From: Lysinibacillus pakistanensis
Lineage (GTDB): Bacteria; Bacillota; Bacilli; Bacillales_A; Planococcaceae
NCBI RefSeq assembly: GCF_030123245.1
Contig: NZ_CP126101.1
Coordinates: forward strand, 3,036,501-3,100,500
Direction of reading: 5' to 3'
Length of the DNA stretch: 64,000 nucleotides
The translations under genes were made by a program, and so were the position numbers. The notes below the pieces were generated by a model, which was given only the letters and a program-made list of their open reading frames with translations, ran no database searches and was not told where the DNA came from. Positions 15,504-15,775 of the stretch are shown here, piece by piece; the stretch's first letter is position 1, and every line of letters begins with the position of its first letter.

Positions 15504-15775
15504 TTAACTCACAGGTGCACGTAAACTAGTCTGAATTAAATGACGAATAATCGCATTTAGATAAGCTTTTGCAGAAGCTTCTAAGTCATCCTGTGAGGAA
15601 TTTCTGCCAGTTGTTGACACACCATTAACGAATATTAATGATGGCTTCAACTAGTGCATCGCGCCCCTTGCCAACAGTTGCTTGGCGATTTCAATTTTTC
15701 TGCTGTATTTAAATTAATACCAGCGGATTTTTCGCCATCGCGAAGAATTGTATCGAAAATATCAATTTTTCGCAC
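15504..15775 (-). pseudogene. leuA: 2-isopropylmalate synthase gene, large internal deletion
   Basis: Remnant of leuA between ilvC and leuB, the normal Bacillus position. It begins with GTG at 15775 and encodes [14 protein letters not shown] plus [15 protein letters not shown], the unmistakable LeuA N-terminus. It then jumps to a C-terminal allosteric-domain piece recognisable as LEASAKAYLNAI before a stop at 15504. About 270 bp of an expected 1.5 kb remain, and frameshifts follow the junction. The start overlaps the ilvC stop by 14 bases, the ancestral coupled arrangement. No active synthase can be made. Confidence 0.85.

Follow-up and report, generated by a model that had tools for sequence, protein, structure and literature searches.

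The ilv-leu operon of Bacillus subtilis is said to be under CUC-dependent regulation by leucine, reportedly described by Marta and co-workers in 1996. The loss of a gene after redundancy has arisen is a known phenomenon. T-box leaders ahead of leuA are listed for Geobacter sulfurreducens and Pelobacter carbinolicus in the relevant part of PMC2494555, and C. difficile CD0989 stands in a riboswitch table, apparently among the T-boxes, in the corresponding part of PMC11477304. In a Lysinibacillus genome paper, one gene cluster includes a "2-isopropylmalate synthase (yngG)", and leuA is unmentioned in that portion of the article (PMC11166776). At the level of titles and opening abstracts, no report of leuA loss or of a second leuA in Lysinibacillus was found in the open-licence literature. 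The window of this study, the whole stretch of 64,000 nucleotides from Lysinibacillus pakistanensis, resembles B. subtilis in carrying an ilv-leu operon behind a T-box-like leader, but differs in that this leader reads AUC (Ile), while a CUC leader is found on an orphan leuA elsewhere in the genome (referred to as leuA2; the operonic copy as leuA1). leuA2 is similar to the Geobacter, Pelobacter and C. difficile genes in having a T-box leader ahead of it; on the other hand, a second, decaying operonic leuA is a feature here, and is unmentioned for those organisms in the parts of the sources concerned.

On the minus strand, the genes were arranged in the order ilvD, ilvB, ilvN, ilvC, leuA1 remnant, leuB, leuC and leuD, all except leuA1 being long open ORFs (Table 1; NCBIfam models gave the names of leuB and, from its first 446 residues, ilvB, and the remaining genes were named by eye). 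The remnant between ilvC and leuB (15504-15775) comprised approximately codons 1-34 and 455-512 of 512, so that ~420 of the 512 codons were gone. Three-frame translation of 15363-15900 (minus strand) gave the N- and C-termini of LeuA in separate frames and nothing of the part between them. When the intact 512-residue operonic LeuA of the closest relative in the comparison set (G004), which scored over the cut-offs of TIGR00973, NF002086 and NF002088 (NCBIfam), was compared with the window by tblastn (threshold, 1e-3), residues 1-29, 451-470 and 474-512 were matched in three frames, together covering 15504-15775 including the stop codon. In the DNA alignment to G004, the flanks of the deletion were 97% and 86% identical, and further small indels were found beyond the deletion of 1,261 nt. 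The remnant began at the expected start of leuA1, with a 14-nt overlap with the ilvC stop. Since identity, order and position all agree, there is no room for a chance match. The remnant thus has the ilvC-leuB position, the ilvC-stop overlap and the terminal pieces of an operonic 2-isopropylmalate synthase (TIGR00973), but lacks most of its codons: leuA homology at the orthologous locus together with a destroyed reading frame. The first-pass annotation had described a leuA destroyed by internal deletion, with only the first ~30 codons and a C-terminal piece remaining, in an operon whose leuB, leuC, leuD and ilv genes all looked intact; the analysis bore out this reading at the coordinates given.

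Table 1. Features of the ilv-leu region (window positions).
Feature	Positions	Strand	Basis
ilvD, dihydroxyacid dehydratase, open ORF	19647..21317	-	ORF, named by eye
ilvB T-box-like leader, specifier AUC (Ile)	19333..19635	-	cmscan RF00230, 78.3 bits, E 2e-17
ilvB, acetolactate synthase large subunit, open ORF	17405..19174	-	TIGR00118 over cut-off, first 446 residues
ilvN/ilvH, acetolactate synthase small subunit, open ORF	16893..17408	-	ORF, named by eye
ilvC, ketol-acid reductoisomerase, open ORF	15762..16844	-	ORF, named by eye
leuA1 5' remnant, ~codons 1-34	15677..15775	-	tblastn residues 1-29, 83% identity; DNA alignment to G004
leuA1 deletion junction	15676..15677	-	1,261 nt gone relative to G004; 2-nt microhomology, from overlap of two blastn pieces
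leuA1 3' remnant, ~codons 455-512, extra small indels	15504..15676	-	tblastn residues 451-470 (75%) and 474-512 (87%)
Spacer stem-loop between leuA1 and leuB, outside the remnant	15407..15436	-	folding of this segment, z -4.7
Second small stem-loop, just upstream of leuB ribosome-binding site	15378..15397	-	single-sequence fold
leuB, 3-isopropylmalate dehydrogenase, intact	14256..15362	-	TIGR00169, 518 bits (cut-off 353)
leuC, isopropylmalate isomerase large subunit, open ORF	12830..14248	-	ORF, named by eye
leuD, isopropylmalate isomerase small subunit, open ORF	12208..12804	-	ORF, named by eye

That the deletion is an artefact of assembly or sequencing is extremely improbable: the genome is a single contig (5,249,694 bases), the additional small indels and substitutions fit decay, and other lesions or absence of the gene were found in 9 of the 31 other genomes of the genus. 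The same was true of 7 of 19 close named Lysinibacillus records, which are apparently the same genomes and not independent. Because the relatives carry different leuA1 lesions and the junction repeat is only 2 nt, which would not give repeat collapse, assembly collapse is unlikely. The 1.26-kb deletion and the small indels probably disabled leuA1, most simply after the split from G004, since the latter keeps an intact 512-codon gene.

The first-pass annotation had called for a search of the genome for leuA or cimA, and had predicted either leucine auxotrophy or replacement by another leuA/cimA. A PF00682 search found five places, one of which was leuA2: an orphan, full-length ORF of 525 amino acids (G000:C1:4863654-4865228), 1.8 Mb from the operon, with HMGL barrel, post-HMGL (post-barrel) and LeuA_dimer domains. 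The remaining four were an ORF with a DmpG_comm domain, an HMG-CoA lyase-like ORF (by eye), one with only the HMGL domain and one of 1,148 amino acids. LeuA2 scored over the cut-offs of two 2-isopropylmalate synthase models, TIGR00973 (648.4 vs 598.7 bits) and NF002086 (684.3 vs 532), and under those of the four other LeuA sub-models matched (NF002088, NF002087, NF002084 and NF002085), so that the assignment as LeuA is by two models, not all. It is conceivable that LeuA2 performs citramalate or homocitrate synthesis or another acyl transfer and that the strain, with leuA1 dead, is a leucine auxotroph; the failed sub-model cut-offs and an identity of just 48% with the operonic LeuA of G004 point that way. 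However, the scores were 205.9 bits for the citramalate synthase CimA (TIGR00977; cut-off, 450) and 297 bits for the homocitrate synthase NifV (TIGR02660; cut-off, 462.9), both failing the cut-off, and we consider auxotrophy improbable also on the evidence of the leader, of selection and of the family given below. A Thr_dehydrat_C (ilvA-type) domain was present in the genome, and isoleucine therefore needs no citramalate route. LeuA2 thus very probably does the job of the broken leuA1: it would make 2-isopropylmalate, which LeuC/D and LeuB from the operon would process further, so that leucine synthesis would continue. The predicted auxotrophy is accordingly not expected by us, and the other half of the prediction, replacement from elsewhere in the genome, is favored by a full-length leuA2 with a putative leucine T-box. 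The enzyme itself is not new, since 2-isopropylmalate synthase is already the annotation of relatives from Sporosarcina, Solibacillus, Priestia, Peribacillus and others (among the best 120 of 7,982 hits, from 8,000 scored candidates). One genus member has an extra LeuA-like ORF of 399 amino acids (G010:C1:4475416-4476525), 42% identical to leuA2.

The leader of leuA2 (L006:5331-5567) matched the T-box model RF00230 with 142.6 bits, above the gathering score of 93. Specifiers were read by eye as the three nucleotides standing 6 or 7 nt ahead of the conserved GAG, which is GAA in two cases. Among the 29 T-box matches in this genome (E 0.001), 23, apart from leuA2 and ilvB, had a downstream gene named by NCBIfam (some as partial proteins below cut-off) with a clear amino acid, and the rule gave the cognate one in 22 (16 at 6 nt and 6 at 7 nt); L257, L256, L263 and L264, unnamed or with an unclear amino acid, were excluded. 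The spacing differs from the 1-5 nucleotides before the GAG motif given in the relevant passage of PMC2494555, and is empirical, being supported by its consistency across this genome. With a spacing of 6 nt, the specifier is CUC (Leu) for leuA2 and AUC (Ile) for ilvB; at 7 nt, the readings would be ACU (Thr) and CAU (His), respectively, senseless for these genes. A leucine specifier was read in 51 of 52 leuA2 leaders (CUC in 50, CUA in 1): all 32 in the genus and all 19 in the rest of the family, one further leader from outside being unread; in a few, the reading lay several hundred nt upstream of the gene. The T-box exceeded the gathering score (cmscan) in 20/20 leuA2 leaders given from outside the genus and in the 3/3 genus genomes given. 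A leucine specifier argues against LeuA2 serving another acyl transfer; we infer that the T-box functions, uncharged leucine tRNA gating leuA2 transcription.

The ilvB leader, on the other hand, stayed under the gathering score (78.3 vs 93), matching model positions 1-219, and is called T-box-like on its E-value, position and conservation. All but one of the 41 regions gave AUC (39 by pattern matching, plus G036 read separately; G230 was unread), among them 10 of the 11 from family members lacking leuA2 (again except G230). Since the reading also occurs in these leuA2-less members, the isoleucine-type leader appears to be older than, or independent of, leuA2, and does not by itself explain the leuA1 losses. 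A switch of the ilv leader from Leu to Ile upon arrival of leuA2 was rejected for the same reason: 10/11 leuA2-less regions already read AUC. The ilv-leu operon would lie behind an isoleucine-type T-box. Several other T-boxes of this genome may be recorded here: metG, which adjoins leuA2 on the opposite strand, has its own (L006:8982-9237, minus strand; Met codon); two serS genes (L253 and L255) each have a Ser T-box; a second ileS (L258) with an Ile T-box gave its top score with MupA/MupB isoleucine--tRNA ligase models, as a partial sequence far below the cut-offs; and the hisS T-box (L270) reads AAC (Asn), the sole misfit among the 23.

Comparison with close relatives, also proposed by the first-pass annotation, revealed different leuA1 lesions in several members of the genus, a recurrence not visible from the window alone. 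In the 32 genus genomes, leuA2 was full length in all, and leuA1 was intact in 22, broken in 7 and absent in 3: internal deletions in six (G000, G002, G011, G031, G022 and G028, the first being the genome of the window), a premature stop at codon 360 in one (G025), and absence in G007, G030 and G012, from two lineages. G011/G031 and G007/G030 are sister pairs with a common lesion, which leaves eight distinguishable lesions. The two clean absences are treated as separate events here, because the clade (support, 100) to which G007/G030 belong contains intact members and leaves out G012; the count would be seven if they were a single event, and the genus tree is unrooted, uses just ilvC, leuB and leuA2, and is supported at 53-78 in several of its nodes. 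No internal stops were found in leuA2, leuB or ilvC (from ~residue 17 on) in 32/32 genomes; one TAA flagged by the search at leuB of G029 was not seen in the extracted sequence. The named loci nearest to LeuB of the window were from Lysinibacillus, with up to 98% identity (own-genome records may be excluded). Among 50 of 76 named loci examined (L050-L098 and L123), leuA1 was broken or absent in eight, which are apparently genomes already in the comparison set and so add names, not independent evidence. Seven were among the first 19 (L050-L068): FJAT-14745, L. xylanilyticus SR-86, KCTC 33748, L. sphaericus SDF0037, L. macroides DSM 54, L. fusiformis Juneja and L. piscis KH24. The eighth was L. 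alkalisoli CGMCC 1.15760, and L095 is truncated by the end of its contig.

Stretches of both gene ends were kept in all six deletion copies of the genus, and the nearby spacer stem-loop was kept where leuA1 was wholly gone, as might be expected if the remnant served a purpose as a cis element or short peptide. Such retention for a purpose is nevertheless very improbable: the stem-loop lies outside the remnant, the ilvC-leuB coding strand in the genome of the window has no stop-free stretch of at least 60 codons, and the remnant is entirely missing in three genus genomes of two lineages. Decay of leuA1 into a pseudogene, with leuA2 taking over the enzyme under a leucine T-box and redundancy leading to repeated loss, is in our judgment highly probable. 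The presence of two LeuA enzymes would have made leuA1 dispensable, and hence leuA1 would have been lost repeatedly while leuB and leuA2 were kept; as read from the sequences, leuA1 appears to be a true pseudogene made dispensable by leuA2.

In the 22 leuA1-intact genomes, the median pairwise dN/dS values of leuA1, leuA2 and leuB were 0.026, 0.019 and 0.027, respectively, and in the other 10 genus genomes those of leuA2 and leuB were 0.018 and 0.031 (rough values, since synonymous changes are near saturation; median dS of leuA1, 1.3). leuA2 and leuB are still constrained where leuA1 is gone, which argues against auxotrophy. Intact leuA1 is approximately as constrained as leuB, and so is not simply useless there; relaxed selection on leuA1 wherever leuA2 exists was rejected on this ground.

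Among 250 sampled genomes of the family, leuA2 was found in 88 (32 in the genus and 56 outside); counts were made by hand, a second LeuA was called at E 1e-110, and genomes were not weighted for relatedness. Outside the genus, nine carriers had no second LeuA at this threshold, and eight of these keep leuB: in seven, ~90-180 nt separate the last matched ilvC codon from leuB, and G082 has a frameshifted leuA1. In the ninth, G146, leuA2 was present and leuB missing (8% contamination, 450 contigs). Accordingly, 17 of the 87 carriers with leuB had no second LeuA at the threshold (9 in the genus and 8 outside), or 18 with G025, whose stop was read through by the search; both figures are minimums, since broken but still matching leuA1 was sought systematically in the genus only. 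Among non-carriers with leuB, one of 150 had no LeuA at all (G105), and there the leuB match starts at residue 48, which was interpreted as the edge of a contig. Neither LeuA was found in 13 genomes, of which 12 also had no leuB. This co-occurrence again speaks against auxotrophy and is consistent with leucine prototrophy through leuA2.

The interesting part is the combination of parallel losses with split control: an isoleucine-type T-box on the operon and a leucine T-box on leuA2. It is possible, though rather doubtful, that leucine control in the family has moved off the ilv-leu operon, the operon answering isoleucine and leuA2 acting as the leucine valve in its carriers, so that a leuA1 without a leucine T-box is both a liability and a spare and is selected against; if true, such selection would account for the eight distinguishable losses within the genus. 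The loss of leuA1 may have been either neutral or favored. The genus offers a natural replicate series, in which the same gene for a committed step of an amino-acid pathway breaks down independently in closely related species, a paralogue under different regulation being retained, and lets one test regulatory fit against mere redundancy in deciding which duplicate survives. For annotation, auxotrophy should not be assumed from a broken leuA in this operon, and leuA2 deserves consideration in metabolic models of Lysinibacillus.

The spacer between leuA1 and leuB contained a 13-bp stem-loop (Table 1), the sequence of which differs between species with pairing kept, and with changes on both sides in 4 of 7 pairs of its consensus-fold stem. 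It was not at this place in G009, and the covariation term was small (-0.63); the stem-loop may act in mRNA processing or stability, or as a partial terminator. The second small stem-loop was missing from the consensus fold, where part of it pairs otherwise. Strong stem-loops of other kinds were suggested in the same spacer of many other genera (single-sequence folds, no controls). A Bacillaceae-1 RNA (RF01690, 70.3 bits) was found at 59780-59846 of the window (minus strand), with a second match near leuA2 in G024 (L161:3679-3745). Downstream of leuD, arrays of a 42-bp unit, with open frames on both strands, occupy 10030-10123 (2.2 copies) and 11527-12051 (12.5 copies).
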